64,000 bases of DNA, taken from Bifidobacterium [indicum] DSM 20214 = LMG 11587. GTDB lineage: Bacteria; Actinomycetota; Actinomycetes; Actinomycetales; Bifidobacteriaceae. Made by a program: the position numbers and the translations under genes. Positions 51,858-58,237 of this stretch are shown here, one piece after another; the first letter of the stretch is position 1, and each line of letters opens with the position of its first letter. The notes beneath the pieces were generated by a model. It made no database searches and had not been told where the DNA came from. It worked only from the letters and a program-made list of their open reading frames with translations. Where the stretch lies: the NCBI RefSeq assembly GCF_000706765.1, contig NZ_CP006018.1, positions 434,001 through 498,000 on the forward strand, given 5' to 3'.

Positions 51858-51912
51858 ATGGGTACCTTTGACGGGAGGGATGTCCTCTTCAGGGTGGTTT
51901 TCTGTATCGGTT

Positions 51913-52387
51913 CTAGTGAGTATTGGACCGGGAGAAGGGGTCGAAATTCGAATCCTGGTTGCGGACGTATTCCATTTCAGTGGTTGCCCGGTCCGCAGCA
52001 TCAGGGCCGACCATGTCCTCAATGAAGGAGAGGGCCATATCGATACCGGCGGAGATGCCTGATGAGGTGCGGAAGTTCCCATCTACCGTCCAGCGGGCAT
52101 CACGAATCCAGGTGACTCGATCACTTACACTGGTCACCCAGTCGAAGGCCAGGTCGTTCGAAGTCGCTCGGCGGCCGTTCAACAGGCCTGTGGCTGCCAG
52201 CAGGGCCGACCCTGTACAGACGGTCAGCACATGTGAGGCTTCGCATGAAAGATCTCTGAGCCTATCCAACCACTGACGGTCCTTGCTGAGGGGACGTGTG
52301 CCATCGCCACCGGGGATGAGGAGAATCCCGCGATGGTCAATCTCGTTCGGTCCTACGGCGGAGACCGGAACATGACCTGCCCCACAC
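51913..52387 (-). pseudogene. DJ-1/PfpI family protein, N-terminally deleted copy
   Basis: The frame from CGAGHVPVSAVGPNE to the stop is almost identical to the intact copy at 57571-58176, including VCTGSALLAATG with the nucleophile Cys. The first 45 or so residues are gone. They are replaced at a junction near 52387 by sequence from within grpB, so the original start is lost. Any open frame reaching further upstream consists of antisense grpB sequence. This is a deletion-derived remnant. Confidence 0.85.
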
Positions 52388-52737
52388 CTCCTCCAGGTAA
52401 GGCCGACTGCGGATATGAAGCGAATCGTTGAAAAATTGGAAAGTGCCGGTTGGTTCGTCATGTACCAAGACATCAGTCAAGGCGAAATCGACCTCAACAA
52501 GGGGCTATACGGAAGACGGGTTCACCGACAAGGTCTATCGTCTGTACGTTAAGCGGCTTGGAGATTGGGACGAACTGGTTTTCCGGGACTATCTCGAAAA
52601 TCATCCGAAGGTGGCAGCTGACTATGCGGCGCTCAAACTCGACCTACTCTCAAAGTTCAAGTACACCGCACCGCCTACACCGAAGCCAAAACCGCCTTCA
52701 CTCGTACTGTTGTAAAACGGGCCAGAGCCGGCGAATA
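52388..52737 (+). pseudogene. GrpB-family remnant, truncated and twice frameshifted
   Basis: It begins inside the gene at sequence equal to the ADMKRIVEKLESAGW part of GrpB, so about 75 N-terminal residues are missing. The frame breaks at GGGG 52501-52504, the same place as in the right-arm copy. A second break (one base missing) follows after KFKY near 52660. The remainder matches GYTEDGF and LGDWDELVFRDYL of GrpB. No functional product is expected. Confidence 0.85.
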
Positions 52738-52937
52738 AGGGTCCGTGGTCATGTAAAGGACCGGTGGTGCGCTTGCTGTAACTTGCGGGCGCAGTGATGT
52801 TCTTCGACTGATTTGAGTTCCGCATCTGGCCCAGGCCGTTCCCCGTTTGCTATATCATGGCATACGAAACTGCGCAAGTGTAGTTATTGACTTGTGCAGG
52901 TGAGGAGGATAACAAAGGGGAAAGGACTCCGCTCATC

Positions 52938-53789
52938 ATGGATGATGAAACAACCACGCTGCCGACCGCTCAGGACGATACAGTAAGTCGGAAGTGCACG
53001 CAGTCAACACCACCGCCCGAGCGGAACAAAGAAATCAAACGGTTGCCAAAATCAGGCAGGAAATCCTCGTGGATAGCTGTGCTTGTAACTATCCTCCTTG
53101 CTATAGGTACTGCTTCTTGCAGCGAGGCAAAACCGACGGAATCCCTGGGACACCAAGATCTGAGTGTCAAATACGTCGGAACTAGGGAAGATCCTAAAGA
53201 AACACGCGTGGAATTCGAACGCGCCAAAACTAATCTGGCAGTTGCCTCTGATAAAGAAGACAGCTGGAACGTGGAGCAGGTAGCGGCGAAGGCCGAAAAG
53301 AAGGCTGATAAGAAGAAGTCGGGAAAGAAGAAGTCTGGTAAGAAGAACTCCGGAAAGAAGAAGTCTGGTAAGAAGAACTCCGGGAAGAAGAAGGCTGATA
53401 AGAAGAACTCCGAGAAGAAGAAGGAGAAGAAGAAGGAGAAGAAGAAGGCTGAAAAGAGGAAGGCCGAGAAGAAAAAAGCCGAAAAGAAGAAAGCCGAAGA
53501 GGAACGGGCAGCCAGGGAAAGGGCCGAACAGGAACAGGCGGCTCAGCAGGCTGCTGCTGAACAGGCGGCACGGCAGGCAGCTGAACAAGCGGCTCAGGAG
53601 CAAGCTCGTCAGGCTGCTGAGCAGGCGGCACGGCAGCAAGCCCAGATGCAGGCTCCTGCTCCGGATGCAAATGTGGTCTATCCGAACTGTGCCGCGGTAC
53701 GTGCCGCAGGTAGAGCTCCCCTGTATGCGGGGGAGCCTGGATACCACCCCGCACTTGATCGCGATCACGATGGTATAGCCTGCGAATAA
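52938..53789 (+). CDS. Lysine-rich membrane protein with C-terminal Excalibur domain (left arm)
   Basis: A protein of 283 residues starting MDDETTTLP at 52938, with GGGGAAAGG about 12 bases upstream. A basic stretch precedes a hydrophobic segment (about 45-62) ending in ASC, which could be a membrane anchor or atypical lipobox. The middle is dominated by Lys-rich repeats (KKKSG, KKNSG units, then KKAEKK), followed by an Ala/Gln-rich helix. The last 37 residues form an Excalibur domain: NCAAVRAAGRAPLY and DRDHDGIACE, with two Cys and a calcium-loop DxDxDG. It is a paralogue of the protein at 56003-56644. Probably envelope-exposed; function unknown. Confidence 0.85.
   Translation: MDDETTTLPTAQDDTVSRKCTQSTPPPERNKEIKRLPKSGRKSSWIAVLVTILLAIGTASCSEAKPTESLGHQDLSVKYVGTREDPKETRVEFERAKTNLAVASDKEDSWNVEQVAAKAEKKADKKKSGKKKSGKKNSGKKKSGKKNSGKKKADKKNSEKKKEKKKEKKKAEKRKAEKKKAEKKKAEEERAARERAEQEQAAQQAAAEQAARQAAEQAAQEQARQAAEQAARQQAQMQAPAPDANVVYPNCAAVRAAGRAPLYAGEPGYHPALDRDHDGIACE
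53308..53424 (+). repeat. 15-base tandem repeats encoding KKxSGK
   Basis: Near-identical 15-base units such as AAGAAGTCTGGTAAG and AAGAACTCCGGAAAG repeat about seven times inside the Lys-rich coding region. The right-arm paralogue lacks them, so the expansion is specific to this arm. Confidence 0.8.
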
Positions 53790-53815
53790 CGGACAAGGAG
53801 TCCGGCTATTTCAGT

Positions 53816-53862
53816 CCGGTCAGAGTGCTGCCGAGGTTCTTTGCGGCGAGTACTCTGACCGG
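53816..53862 (+). terminator. Terminator of the left-arm Excalibur gene
   Basis: CCGGTCAGAGT pairs with ACTCTGACCGG, extended inward by CT/AG and GCCG/CGGC pairing with a bulge, and is followed by GTTTGTGTTT. The right arm has a homologous hairpin at 55929-55975. Confidence 0.85.
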
Positions 53863-53979
53863 GTTTGTGTTTGGATCAGTTTATTGCGGTCTATGTCTGA
53901 TTAACGACTCCATATCCGGTTGAACGGTTGAATGTCTATACCGTCTTAATTGAAGAACATGCCAGGTGAAACAGGTCTC

Positions 53980-54008
53980 CCGTTCTTCTTGGTCGGCAAG
54001 AAGAACGG
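53980..54008. other. Perfect 12-base-pair hairpin of unknown role
   Basis: CCGTTCTTCTTG and CAAGAAGAACGG flank a GTCGG loop with no mismatch and no T-run on either side. It lies in the part of the left arm that the right arm lacks. Confidence 0.6.
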
Positions 54009-54141
54009 TGGGTGACCTTCATTGAATTAAAGGCAAGGCGTGAGTGTATGGACGCTCCGCGAGAGTGCAAGTGCTTATCCAGCTTCACTGAACACGGGAC
54101 CTCACAACCTGGACGCCAGGCGTGGTACAGTAGTACGCGTT

Positions 54142-54214
54142 GCCCCGGTAGCTCAGGAGATAGAGCACTTCTCTCCTAAAGAAGGTGTCGTGCGTTCGAA
54201 TCGCATCCGGGGCA
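54142..54214 (+). tRNA. tRNA-Arg (CCT), copy 1
   Basis: A 73-base cloverleaf: acceptor GCCCCGG/CCGGGGC with discriminator A, anticodon stem CTTCT/AGAAG, loop CTCCTAA giving anticodon CCT, and T-loop TTCGAAT. CCA is not encoded. It differs from copy 2 (minus strand, 55755-55827) at one base: A at 54158 in the D-loop, where copy 2 has G. This may affect the conserved G18-G19 pair. The minus-strand HTH gene overlaps its 3' half. Confidence 0.93.
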
Positions 54215-54562
54215 CTCTGACGACTCAGGCATAAGGAAATACCTGGGCATTGCAGCCCCTGCCGGAGTCAGTGAACCTTGTTGTATACCCATCCTGTTGA
54301 TTGTCTTCATCATGGAATCATCCATAAGCGCCTCGGGGGTGGTGTCCAAAAAGTTGGCTGTATTGACCAAATCAGGAACCGACCACTGGGTTTTCCCGCT
54401 CAGTTTTACGGATATGGTGGAACGGCGCACTCCGAGGTAATCCGCCAAGCTCGACTGGCTCTTGCCGGTGGCGGTCAGCATGACTTTTACGTTGAAGGAA
54501 ATAACGTTCTCCACCTGATTAGGATCGAGTCGCGTCACTTCCATTTCTTGCACTGAACTCAT
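54176..54562 (-). CDS. HTH (XRE-like) DNA-binding protein ending inside tRNA-Arg 1 (left arm)
   Basis: A protein of 128 residues starting MSSVQEMEV behind AGGAAG. The helix-turn-helix is in SQSSLADYLGVRRSTISVKLSG, with a second helical region to ALMDDS. The tail YFLMPESSECPGCDSNARHLL reads into the antisense strand of the tRNA gene, and the TAG stop overlaps the anticodon. The right-arm homologue ends identically. It resembles phage or plasmid repressors and is divergent from the small HTH gene, across a region with an inverted repeat. Confidence 0.8.
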   Translation of the reverse strand: MSSVQEMEVTRLDPNQVENVISFNVKVMLTATGKSQSSLADYLGVRRSTISVKLSGKTQWSVPDLVNTANFLDTTPEALMDDSMMKTINRMGIQQGSLTPAGAAMPRYFLMPESSECPGCDSNARHLL

Positions 54563-54584
54563 TGCACTTCCTTCTACTATGTCC

Positions 54585-54611
54585 TTGTGATAGCAACACT
54601 TTACATCACAA
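54585..54611. promoter_or_regulatory. Candidate operator between divergent HTH genes (left arm)
   Basis: TTGTGAT at 54585-54591 and ATCACAA at 54605-54611 are perfect inverted repeats whose centres are 20 bases (two helical turns) apart. They sit between the starts of the two divergent HTH genes, as in a CI/Cro-type switch. Confidence 0.5.
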
Positions 54612-54648
54612 CTTGCGTTTCTTCCAGTTCAACACTATGTTGTTCAAT

Positions 54649-54890
54649 ATGAATGAACTAGTACATGCTGGCGTGAACACGAACATGAAGCAGTGGCTAG
54701 CTGATCAGCATATTTCTTACAGGGCTCTGGCTCGGATACTTCGTATCTCTTCCTCGTCAGTCTGCAAGAAAGTAAATGGAGCGTCAGTTGGCAGGCAGAC
54801 GAGCTGCATACATTGAACAAGCAATTCGGCCTTTCTGCTGATTTTGTTCTCGGCTTCTGCGACAAGGCAAAGGTTCTTCAGCCTGTATGA
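54649..54890 (+). pseudogene. Small HTH protein, frameshifted (left arm)
   Basis: From ATG 54649 the frame reads MNELVHAGVNTNMKQWL, then SYRALARILRISSSSVCKKVNG, and then breaks near 54780. In another frame it resumes as VSWQADELHTLNKQFGLSADFVLGF and ends at TGA 54888-54890. The joined sequence aligns over its length with the intact 70-residue protein at 55038-55250 (shared GLS-DFV-G). One or two bases have been gained or lost, so the gene is probably dead. Confidence 0.75.
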
Positions 54891-54892
54891 GA

Positions 54893-54927
54893 TACGGCTT
54901 CCCGTCTAATGCAGATAGGAAGCCGTA
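54893..54927. other. Hairpin at the palindrome centre
   Basis: TACGGCTTCC at 54893-54902 pairs with GGAAGCCGTA at 54918-54927. No T-run follows. It starts just after the frameshifted small HTH gene and may end its transcript, or be a relic of the palindrome centre. Confidence 0.5.
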
Positions 54928-55037
54928 GATGAAATGACCGAAGGTACATCCAGACAATCTTGGCGGAGCGACCGGATGCGCCTGCTGACATTTCATGGGA
55001 GGTCTCTTGGTCGTCAAACCAGGGGCTCCTTTTGATA

Positions 55038-55250
55038 TCAGTCAGTTTTGGCTAGCGGGCTGTCACTAATGCCAATGACAAAATCGGACGATAAACCGAA
55101 TAACCGATGAAGGGCAATCAAGTCGCTTTGCTGCCAGGTGGTATTACCTCGCACTTTATTGCTTACGTTCACAGGAGTCTGGTTCAGCATCCCGGCAAGA
55201 GCAGAATAAGAAAGGCCTCTACTCTGCATCCAGTGGTACATGTTTGACAT
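55038..55250 (-). CDS. Small HTH (Cro-like) protein (right arm)
   Basis: A protein of 70 residues, MSNMYHWMQSRGLSYSALA, possibly starting at the second Met (55241). The helix-turn-helix spans LSYSALAGMLNQTPVNVSNKVRG, followed by a TTWQQSDLIALHRLFGL helix pair. It diverges from the larger HTH gene, a classic repressor/antirepressor layout. Its ribosome site is weak. Base composition is less GC-rich than the chromosome around it. Confidence 0.7.
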   Translation of the reverse strand: MSNMYHWMQSRGLSYSALAGMLNQTPVNVSNKVRGNTTWQQSDLIALHRLFGLSSDFVIGISDSPLAKTD

Positions 55251-55376
55251 AGCCGCTCACTTTGCTTGTTAACTGACATTTAAACAGTAGAGCAAATTTT
55301 GACTTTGTGCAAACCAGGTGTTTAGATGATAAAGAGCAATTCGTTCTGTTAAGCAGATTGAGTGGAGTGATTCACA

Positions 55377-55793
55377 ATGAGTACCGCGAGTATAGAGGCT
55401 GTGCAAGAGACCTCGTACGATCATGCAGATTATGAAGACCAGGTGCTTCGTTTCAACATAAAGATGCTGCTCGCCGCTTCTCCCAGCATTAATCAGACGA
55501 GCCTCGCCAAGCTTTTCCATATCACGACGGCGGGAATGTCATACAAACTCAACAGACCAGGCCGCTTATCTTTCAAGGATGTAATCCTTATCGCCGATGA
55601 ATTAGGCACCTCAGTACAAGCCCTGATGGACGATTCCATCTACCGGCGCATGACGGAATGGGGTCAGGTAAACCAGAAGGGTACAGAAATAGGTAGTCAG
55701 GACCTAGTTGCAGAGAGCAAAGCTAGGTATTTCGTTATGCCTGAGTCTTCAGAGTGCCCCGGATGCGATTCGAACGCACGACACCTTCTTTAG
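55377..55793 (+). CDS. HTH (XRE-like) DNA-binding protein ending inside tRNA-Arg 2 (right arm)
   Basis: A protein of 138 residues beginning MSTASIEAVQE, with GGAG nine bases upstream. The HTH region is NQTSLAKLFHITTAGMSYKLNR and is followed by ADELGTSVQALMDDSI, shared in pattern with the left-arm protein. Identity between the two is low except at the end, where YFVMPESSECPGCDSNARHLL is nearly the same because the frame enters the antisense strand of tRNA-Arg 2 and stops opposite its anticodon. Confidence 0.8.
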   Translation: MSTASIEAVQETSYDHADYEDQVLRFNIKMLLAASPSINQTSLAKLFHITTAGMSYKLNRPGRLSFKDVILIADELGTSVQALMDDSIYRRMTEWGQVNQKGTEIGSQDLVAESKARYFVMPESSECPGCDSNARHLL

Positions 55794-55827
55794 GAGAGAA
55801 GTGCTCTATCCCCTGAGCTACCGGGGC
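55755..55827 (-). tRNA. tRNA-Arg (CCT), copy 2
   Basis: Same 73-base cloverleaf as copy 1 with anticodon CCT, but with G in the D-loop (AGGGGAT), the more usual sequence. TACAGT about ten bases upstream may be its -10 element, with CCGACA 16 bases before that. It is oriented toward copy 1, so the two are an inverted pair about 1.5 kb apart. Confidence 0.94.
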
Positions 55828-55928
55828 AACGCGTACTACTGTACCACGCCTGGCGCCCGTGTCGGGAGGCTCCGTGTTCTGGGAAACGGGGCACTCCGTG
55901 AACCCTGCAACCTGAATGCCTGGAAAAT

Positions 55929-55975
55929 CCGGTCAGAGCACTTGCCATGAGGAATCTCGGCAGCACTGTGACCGG
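55929..55975 (-). terminator. Terminator of the right-arm Excalibur gene
   Basis: On the minus strand CCGGTCACAGTGCTGCC pairs with GGCAAGTGCTCTGACCGG, with one bulge and one mismatch, followed by ATTTTCC. It is homologous to the left-arm hairpin at 53816. Confidence 0.8.
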
Positions 55976-56002
55976 ACTGAAATATGCAGGTTTCCTTACC
56001 TG

Positions 56003-56644
56003 TTATTCGCAGGCTATACCATCGTGGTCGCGATCGAGTGCAGAACGATACCCAGGCTGCCCTGCATAAAGAGGGGCTCTGCCAGCCGCTCGTACCGCAT
56101 CGCAGTTTTGATAGTACGCATACGTATCTGGCGCAGGAGCCGACATCTGGGATCTCTGCTGAATTTGCTGCTGAGCCTGCTGTTGGGCCTGCTGAGCCGC
56201 CTTTTCCTGCTCGGCCTTTTCCTGCTCGACCCGTTCTTGCTCGGCTTTTTCCTGCTCGGCTTTTTCCTTGGCTGCCTTCTCCTCTGCCGCCTTCTTCTCT
56301 TCCTGCTCCTTATCCCACATATCCGCTTTCTGCGAGGCCGTCTTCAAATCGCTCTTGGCGCTATCAAGCTCCATGCGCATTCTTTGAAGTTCATTCTGGG
56401 TATCGGAGTACTTGGCACTCAGGTTTTTGTATTCATGAGATTCAGTAGGTTTTGTCTCGCCGCATGAGGCTGCACCTATACCAACAAGAAAAGCCACAAG
56501 CGAAGTGGCCCACGGGAACTTCTTCCCGGATTCTGACGGCTGCTTTGAATCCTGAGGCTCCTCCGGAGAGGGCGATGACGGCGTTGACTTTCGATTTACC
56601 GTACTGGTCAGGATTTTCGACATTCTTTTTGTTGCATCATCCAT
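56003..56644 (-). CDS. Glutamate-rich coiled-coil membrane protein with Excalibur domain (right arm)
   Basis: A protein of 213 residues starting MDDATKRMSK, with GAGGGGAAAGG upstream. The layout equals the left-arm paralogue: hydrophilic start, hydrophobic segment ending in AASC, and a KPTES motif. A long helix follows, then the Excalibur domain NCDAVRAAGRAPLY...DRDHDGIACE. The helix here is Glu/Lys/Gln-rich (repeats of EQEKA), a likely coiled coil, where the paralogue has Lys-rich repeats. The Excalibur domain suggests calcium-dependent envelope function; the actual role is unknown. Confidence 0.85.
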   Translation of the reverse strand: MDDATKRMSKILTSTVNRKSTPSSPSPEEPQDSKQPSESGKKFPWATSLVAFLVGIGAASCGETKPTESHEYKNLSAKYSDTQNELQRMRMELDSAKSDLKTASQKADMWDKEQEEKKAAEEKAAKEKAEQEKAEQERVEQEKAEQEKAAQQAQQQAQQQIQQRSQMSAPAPDTYAYYQNCDAVRAAGRAPLYAGQPGYRSALDRDHDGIACE

Positions 56645-56833
56645 GATGGACAGAGCCTTTCCCCTCTGTTGATCCCCTTCGACCTGCAGCGAGTCAATTA
56701 CAGCACTCTTGCGCAGTCCGCATACCATAATACCGGAAACAGGATGCGAGCCGGACCGGCAGTACTTGAGGTGAAGCTACGCCCACAAAGCGGGACCGCA
56801 TGCACTGCCGGCTCTCTACACCACCACGGCCCC

Positions 56834-57404
56834 TTATTCGTCGTTCCTGGCCCGCTTTACAACATTACGAATGAAGTCTGTTTTGGCTTCGGTGTAGGCG
56901 GGGCGGTTGTATTTGAACTTTGAGAGCAGGTCGAGTTTGAGCGCCGCATAGTCAGCTGCTACTTTCGGATGACCTTCGAGATAGTCCCGGAAAACCAGTT
57001 CGTCCCAATCTCCAAGCCGCTTAAGGTGCAGATGGTAGACCTTGTCGGCGAATCCGTCTTCCGTATAGCCCCTTGCTGAGGTCGACTTCGCCTCCACTGA
57101 TGTCTTGGTACATGACGAACCAGCCCGCGCTTTCCAGCTCTTCAACGATTCGCCTCATATCCGTATTCGGTCTTACCTGGAGGAGGATATCCACAATTGG
57201 CTTGGCCAACAACCCCGGAACGGAGGTACTGCCAATGTGGTCGATCCTGCTGATTGCATCCCCCAATGTGCTGAGCAGATTCTCTTCTTCCTCCTTGTAA
57301 TAGTCCTCCCACACATCTTGGTGCTCCACAAGCTCAATGGGAAACAAGCGCCATAGTTCTTCCTTGCTCATTTCCGTCAGCCGTTTCCTTGTCATGACCA
57401 GCAT
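56834..57404 (-). pseudogene. GrpB-family protein with one frameshift (right arm)
   Basis: Residues up to SGGEVDLSKG (nucleotidyltransferase-fold GrpB/UPF0157: FPIELVEHQDVW, RIDHIGSTSVPGL, KPIVDILL) are in one frame. After GGGG, CCCC on the plus strand at 57069-57072, the rest continues in another: GYTEDGFADKVYHLHLKRLGDWDELVFRDYL to the end. Removing one G restores a full-length protein of about 189 residues. The same G-run breaks the left-arm copy. A true pseudogene, a programmed shift or an assembly error are all possible. Confidence 0.85.
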
Positions 57405-57570
57405 CCCCCCGCTTGGTAGATTGGATATCAGCCCAGAGACTATGCCTCATAGGCTTGATAGGGTAATCATAAGTTGCACCTGCCGGTTTCGGTGCAGGTC
57501 TTTTCCACGGCAAGGAAGTCATAAGTCCAGATTTCTTGATTGCGGACACCGGACGCGAGGAGCCTAACCA

Positions 57571-58176
57571 ATGGATATGAACATCAACATACTGTTGTTC
57601 GAGGAATTCGAACCTCTCGACGTCTTCGGGCCTTTCGAGGTTTTCTTCAACACCCCTGGTGTCCGAAACCGGCTCTTCTGCCTGGATGGGCCGCAGGTGG
57701 TGTGTGGGGCTGGTCATGTTCCGGTCTCCGCCGTAGGACCGAACGAGATTGACCATCGTGGGATTCTCCTCATCCCCGGTGGCGATGGCACGCGTCCCCT
57801 CAGCAAGGACCGTCGGTGGTTGGATAGGCTCGGAGAACTTGCATCCGAAGCTTCACAGGTGCTGACCGTCTGTACAGGGTCGGCCCTGCTGGCAGCCACA
57901 GGCCTGTTGGACGGCCGCCGAGCGACTTCGAACGACCTGGCCTTCGACTGGGTGACCAGTGTAAGTGATCGAGTCACCTGGATTCGTGATGCCCGCTGGA
58001 CGGTAGATGGGAACTTCCGCACCTCATCAGGCATCTCCGCCGGTATCGATATGGCCCTCTCCTTCATTGAGGACATGGTCGGCCCTGATGCTGCGGACCG
58101 GGCAACCACTGAAATGGAATACGTCCGCAACAGGGATTCGAATTTCGACCCCTTCTCCCGGTCCAATACTCACTAG
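57571..58176 (+). CDS. DJ-1/PfpI family protein (intact copy)
   Basis: A protein of 201 residues from ATG 57571 behind GAGGAG. It has the class I glutamine amidotransferase-like fold. The nucleophile elbow is TVCTGSALLAATG, with the Cys at the strand-helix turn, preceded by GILLIPGG. The FEPLDVFGPFEVF start matches DJ-1/PfpI proteins related to the N-terminal domain of GlxA-type regulators. The C-terminal DNA-binding domain of those regulators is missing. It diverges from grpB. Possible roles include glyoxalase-, amidase- or isonitrile hydratase-like activity; none can be chosen. Confidence 0.87.
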   Translation: MDMNINILLFEEFEPLDVFGPFEVFFNTPGVRNRLFCLDGPQVVCGAGHVPVSAVGPNEIDHRGILLIPGGDGTRPLSKDRRWLDRLGELASEASQVLTVCTGSALLAATGLLDGRRATSNDLAFDWVTSVSDRVTWIRDARWTVDGNFRTSSGISAGIDMALSFIEDMVGPDAADRATTEMEYVRNRDSNFDPFSRSNTH

Positions 58177-58237
58177 AACCGATACAGAAAACCACCCTGA
58201 AGAGGACATCGTACACGTTTCAGGAAGAAGGGATGAT

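Follow-up and report, generated by a model that had tools for sequence, protein, structure and literature searches.

Introduction

Integration-dependent immunity is reportedly known from work by Broussard in 2013 on the mycobacteriophages BPs, Brujita and Charlie. In three papers on mycobacteriophages (PMC9262239, PMC9934374, PMC8092301), this form of immunity involves an attP site within the repressor gene, a tyrosine integrase gene downstream in the circular form, a tRNA gene as attB and a stop codon on the host side; ssrA-like repressor tails are reported in two of them (PMC9262239, PMC9934374). The system is known in mycobacteriophages and predicted in Bifidobacterium breve. In this species, prophages Bb423phi2 and 689b-1, located at tRNA-Met, have the attP-in-repressor layout and an ssrA-like tail (PMC6109161). 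Integrative and conjugative elements of Actinobacteria, according to PMC3218068, have a relaxase, a coupling protein, tRNA sites and a tyrosine integrase.

Here we analyse two repressor-like genes, A and B, in a stretch of 64,000 nucleotides (hereafter referred to as the window) from Bifidobacterium [indicum] DSM 20214 = LMG 11587 (NZ_CP006018.1, positions 434,001 to 498,000); the coordinates of its features are window positions. Like the repressor genes of BPs, Brujita and Charlie, A and B are cut at the core and end in a host tRNA, but, unlike those phages, the window modules have neither integrase nor attR. Bb423phi2 and 689b-1 differ from the window modules in their tRNA and in the clades of their repressors, and have phage rather than conjugative gene content. 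Very probably, two distinct mobile elements each integrated at a tRNA-Arg(CCT) gene, one bringing A as its repressor and the other B.

Organization of the locus

The anatomy of the locus can be read directly. The window contains two tRNA-Arg(CCT) genes, copy 1 (54142-54215, + strand) and copy 2 (55754-55827, - strand), which face inward, toward each other, and a large inverted repeat, with paired arms extending from 51879 to 58210, encloses both loci. Repressor A (54176-54562, - strand, 128 aa) and repressor B (55377-55793, + strand, 138 aa) are CI-like HTH proteins, the 3' ends of which lie antisense to tRNA copies 1 and 2, respectively. The original prediction that both frames end in the antisense strand of the tRNA and stop opposite its anticodon was borne out by the tRNA and ORF coordinates, the stop codon being TAG in both cases. 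A Cro-like gene diverges from each repressor gene: partner A (54649-54892, + strand) is frameshifted after about residue 45, and partner B (55038-55250, - strand, 70 aa) is intact and 56% identical to the partner in a Bifidobacterium xylocopae element (L017, 12711-12902). The Pfam HTH match of A was weak (BetR, E 4e-4; HTH_3, 4.5e-4). In PHROGs, A gave a clear match to phrog_4583, a transcriptional repressor (6.5e-13), and B reached only 7.6e-4. Promoter and terminator scans yielded results no better than those for shuffles.

The left part of the inverted duplication (51879-54244), containing DJ-1/PfpI-like, GrpB-like, excalibur-domain and tRNA pieces, is absent from a genome of the same species (G014), with which the right part (55725-58210) has its arrangement in common. 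The paired excalibur-domain proteins (52887-53789 and 56003-56728), in inverted orientation, have a charged repeat region and are 73-77% alike in parts, the adjoining arms being 91-97% alike.

The tail common to A and B reads YFxMPESSECPGCDSNARHLL. Its sharing despite divergence elsewhere, a further element of the original prediction, is clear: the final 18 residues (MPESSECPGCDSNARHLL) are the same in both proteins, with RYF just before them, although whole-protein identity is 42%. In the antisense DNA, the A and B sides match at 73/74 positions within the tRNA, at 27/29 positions in the next 29 nt (54216-54244, - strand, encoding RYFLMPESSE of repressor A; 55725-55753, + strand, encoding RYFVMPESSE of repressor B) and at no more than 29/91 further out; the tail that they share thus breaks off sharply 29 nt past the tRNA. 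Conservation of the YFxMPESSE piece before the tRNA, as originally proposed, is thus upheld between A and B, and a related motif, resembling PR[YF][FLI][VLIA], is found just before the tRNA in 29 of the 62 repressors tabulated below; this piece seems to be conserved at the protein level, because the motif recurs with varied codons. The 27/29 match outside the tRNA is more than a core requires; gene conversion between the inverted arms may account for some of it. The predicted repressor structure is of low confidence (mean pLDDT 55.5, with residues 95-138 below 50), which only hints that the tail may be unfolded. Transcription antisense to the tRNA would be built into this architecture.

The tail would correspond to the attachment-site core, the 3' part of the tRNA, of elements whose repressor gene contains attP. 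In the circular form, this gene would read through the core into a further tail, with the integrase gene next, in the same direction. Integration into the 3' end of the tRNA gene would cut the repressor at the core and rebuild the tRNA, which would then supply the stop codon of the cut repressor, and the integrase would end up at the opposite end, separated from the repressor promoter. What remains in the window would be two attL-side ends, each with a repressor and its divergent Cro-like gene; everything else, including the integrase, would have been lost. A and B are very probably orphan attL scars; the 3' part of tRNA copy 1 is attachment-core sequence, as expected of an attL-like scar, and copy 2 has the same core. 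The original suggestion, capture of the frames as an element joined the 3' region of the tRNA, was right and can be refined by placing the attachment core inside the repressor gene. No relative of either integrase query was found in the window genome, and no second partial core or attR was found in the window; the attP of A or B cannot, therefore, be rebuilt.

The tRNA-Arg(CCT) site in the genus

We searched 27 genomes of the genus. The tRNA probe matched 26 of them, with two copies in the window genome alone, and repressor B, used as a query, gave matches in 13, mostly to the tail region alone. The tail sequence was present at 11 tRNA-Arg(CCT) loci outside the window genome, and the upstream frame at these loci is broken or short. 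The HTH-only search gave no match at tRNA-Arg(CCT) in the other genomes of the genus. In G014, from the same species, there is a single tRNA-Arg(CCT) and no left arm, and all that is left of the repressor is a remnant. The genus shows decay at this site.

At the tRNA-Arg(CCT) of genome G025 (locus L021), an older A-type remnant is followed by a partial core and then a tyrosine integrase; in all, A-type remnants, then partial cores and integrase pieces, precede the complete tRNA. One of these integrases is a full 441-residue tyrosine integrase, making this decayed element the only one at tRNA-Arg(CCT) with a full integrase. Genome G003 has a partial core and a weak integrase remnant at this tRNA. 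The nested remnants, cores and integrase pieces of L021 (5469-17496) suggest repeated capture of elements at one tRNA-Arg(CCT).

A and B may still repress something, and the host might have retained both to block related incoming elements. We consider this domestication unlikely, albeit worth keeping in view: both frames are open, and at the tRNA-Arg(CCT) genes of other genomes in the genus, no HTH gene of the family is still open, but the Cro-like partner A is frameshifted and G014, of the same species, has kept a remnant only; the codon comparison was saturated in synonymous change, leaving recent selection unreadable.

Phylogeny of the repressors

That A and B are related to repressors located at other tRNAs was observed directly. 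The HTH tree, based on 68 columns, has many open forks and requires at least 18 changes of tRNA. B grouped with the B. xylocopae repressor, located at tRNA-Lys(TTT), with support values of 98/94. The rows closest to A in the tree were repressors at tRNA-Lys(CTT) and tRNA-Lys(TTT), and its HTH was closest to those of repressors at tRNA-Lys(CTT) in G142 and G138 (75% with G138). A and B thus lie in separate clades, each near tRNA-Lys repressors rather than near each other. Their separate nearest relatives indicate that they are not recent copies of each other, and the proximity of both to tRNA-Lys repressors points to two elements that used the same attB. The features common to A and B are those that a shared attB imposes.

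It is very improbable that A and B are diverged copies of a single ancestral host gene at tRNA-Arg(CCT), duplicated along with the tRNA in the inverted repeat. The region is indeed a large inverted repeat, and the near-identity of the tRNA ends would fit their shared ancestry, but the tRNA-side arms are 92% identical, as opposed to 42% for A and B, each of which has closer relatives among the repressors found at different tRNAs in other species, and the duplicated tRNA is confined to one of the 27 genomes. On the HTH tree, we reject a simple copy of one host gene.

The repressor family in Bifidobacteriaceae

Within 189 Bifidobacteriaceae genomes, a profile built from A, B and the repressor of B. 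xylocopae had matches in 83, and an HTH-only profile, free of tail bias, in 86. Among 396 genomes drawn from the phylum, eight outside the family matched the HTH-only profile, weakly, and none of these matches ended in a tRNA. We examined 89 frames of the family (HTH-only matches of E 4.4e-14 or stronger, with L132, of odd length, left out); 63, including window A, end inside an antisense tRNA. Window repressor B and the frame at G081:C1:1360335 were examined apart from this set. A table of 62 repressors, corresponding to the 63 plus window B, minus a few rows, was distributed over tRNA-Met (18), tRNA-Glu (16), tRNA-Asn (11), tRNA-Lys(TTT) (6), tRNA-Arg(CCT) (4), tRNA-Lys(CTT) (3), tRNA-Leu (3) and tRNA-Arg(TCT) (1), with all three antisense frames in use; these counts include near-identical sequences and are not independent, since 11 of the 16 tRNA-Glu repressors have an identical HTH.

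None of 30 generic HTH_3 genes ended in an antisense tRNA. Among 1726 ATG frames, 13 did so, all of them repressors, leaving 0/1713 for the other ATG ORFs (at least 100 aa). Repressor ends in antisense tRNA exceed chance. Scans of viral contigs detected no relatives, repressor B had one weak match in phage records, and plasmid records gave four weak Streptomyces matches.

The A/B tail is one of the three open antisense frames of tRNA-Arg(CCT), and the G170 and G171 repressors read the same tRNA in another (VPRMRFERTTPALGERCSIP). It is very improbable that CPGCDSNARHLL is a protein end selected for a role of its own, the tRNA overlap being secondary. The tail is identical in A and B, which have diverged elsewhere, but relatives end in eight tRNAs, with other tRNA-derived tails in all three frames, and its sequence is also still found next to decayed repressors of other genomes. 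We rejected a selected tail peptide because tails vary with tRNA and frame, and this half of the original prediction is not supported for the tRNA-derived part.

In four genomes (L094, L095, L099 and L100), the repressor, instead of stopping in a tRNA, continues in frame into a cyclophilin-like (peptidyl-prolyl isomerase) gene, identified by eye, suggesting a non-tRNA attachment site. At another locus (L202, G185:C1:171900-174000), a tRNA-Met-like core lies within the repressor tail, the end of which is inside tRNA-Lys(CTT), as though the attachment site had been retargeted.

Attachment cores, integrases and rejoined tails

Relatives bounded by matching cores, with the integrase at the far end, were observed directly, and A and B very probably arrived by site-specific integration. 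The repressor-end core recurs upstream of the paired integrase in 20 of the 24 repressor/integrase pairs tried (all but G186, G106, G055 and G070), and G091 provided a 21st element with a core; G059 has no readable tail, and the matches behind G067 and G091c7 are short (18 and 15 nt, respectively). Cores of up to 47 nt are identical. The integrase gene lies downstream of the rejoined tail or core, in the same direction, in all 19 pairs measured. The element integrase is 42.5% identical to that of Cluster G mycobacteriophages. At L210 (G067:C1:1105600-1107700), a repressor, a core and an L021-type integrase (40% identical) are contiguous, the gene order expected of a circular form or a tandem junction.

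The rejoined tails were LAA-like in 12/12 phage-type tRNA-Met elements (endings FTLAA, FILAA, LTLAA, LILAA, LILAA, FNLAA, LTQAA, LTQAA, LTLAD, FTLVD, YDLVD and FILTA), versus 0/8 other elements (HQSML, HGLGG, PLQNE, CAEHE, YHPFF, PQTQV, DDCAL and ISHKA). With a strict AA ending, the counts were 8/12 and 0/8 (Fisher p 0.005, for rows that are related). The tRNA-Met element of G011, of about 16 kb, has phage-like long genes, named from gene order and length. The elements resemble BPs, Brujita and Charlie in having attP in the repressor, the integrase downstream, a tRNA attB, a host-side stop and, in the tRNA-Met elements, an LAA-like tail. The 12 tRNA-Met elements also match Bb423phi2 and 689b-1, from the same host family, in their attP-in-repressor layout and ssrA-like tail. 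Unlike the mycobacteriophages, the class nearest to the window gives no LAA-like tail, and four of its members have conjugation genes.

A conjugative class of elements

Of the eight non-Met elements, G042, G154 and G162 aside, conjugation genes were found in four (G041, G142, G081a and G081b), and G091 matched the replication-initiator query only. G041 encodes ParB, a topoisomerase, a MobA/VirD2-like relaxase, a TraG-type coupling protein and a large antigen I/II-like adhesin. G081b encodes a relaxase, a T4SS coupling protein, a TraG/TraC-type ATPase and TrbL; G142 has a TrwC relaxase, and G081a matches the relaxase and TraG of G041. This second class is conjugative where examined. In their relaxase, coupling protein, tRNA sites and tyrosine integrase, G041 and G081b are like the integrative and conjugative elements of Actinobacteria, but an attP inside the repressor gene is not described in the accessible part of PMC3218068. 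Near their repressor end, G041, G142, G081b and other stretches (L211-L249) repeatedly have genes for large antigen I/II-like adhesins.

A small divergent Cro-like gene is present in G041, G142, G081a and G081b, and, on visual inspection, the G041 and G142 genes are similar to those of the window. From the relatedness of repressors and Cro-like genes, modules A and B would belong with this second class, and we infer that they originated from conjugative rather than phage elements. No G041 or G142 transfer-gene query (relaxase, type IV coupling/transfer) had a match in the window.

We lean, by a little, towards a broader proposal, in which bifidobacterial conjugative elements use integration as a genetic switch: with attP in a CI-like repressor gene, recombination would rewrite the repressor end and sever the integrase from its promoter, without the phage LAA degradation tag; sites would be retargeted among at least eight tRNA genes, and a newcomer integrating at a resident attL would leave the repressor already there with a foreign tail. 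Such newcomer integration, with its foreign tails, is suggested by the nested junctions in L021 and G091.

No integration-dependent immunity in conjugative elements was found in the open literature searched, one paper, in its accessible text, using the terms for prophages and plasmids separately. An attP in the repressor gene of conjugative elements lacking an LAA tag looks like a new arrangement, provisionally, since the search was limited to open literature.

Element integration accounts for a repeated sequence at tRNA genes that is otherwise puzzling. A phage control strategy of an unusual kind appears to be widespread in bifidobacteria, and in conjugative elements too. The tRNA-derived repressor tails provide a quick way to locate element ends in probiotic and gut bacteria. 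If the conjugative class works as proposed, a single recombination event would set both repression and integrase supply with no degradation tag, and this class would be a simple test case for the evolution of such switches.
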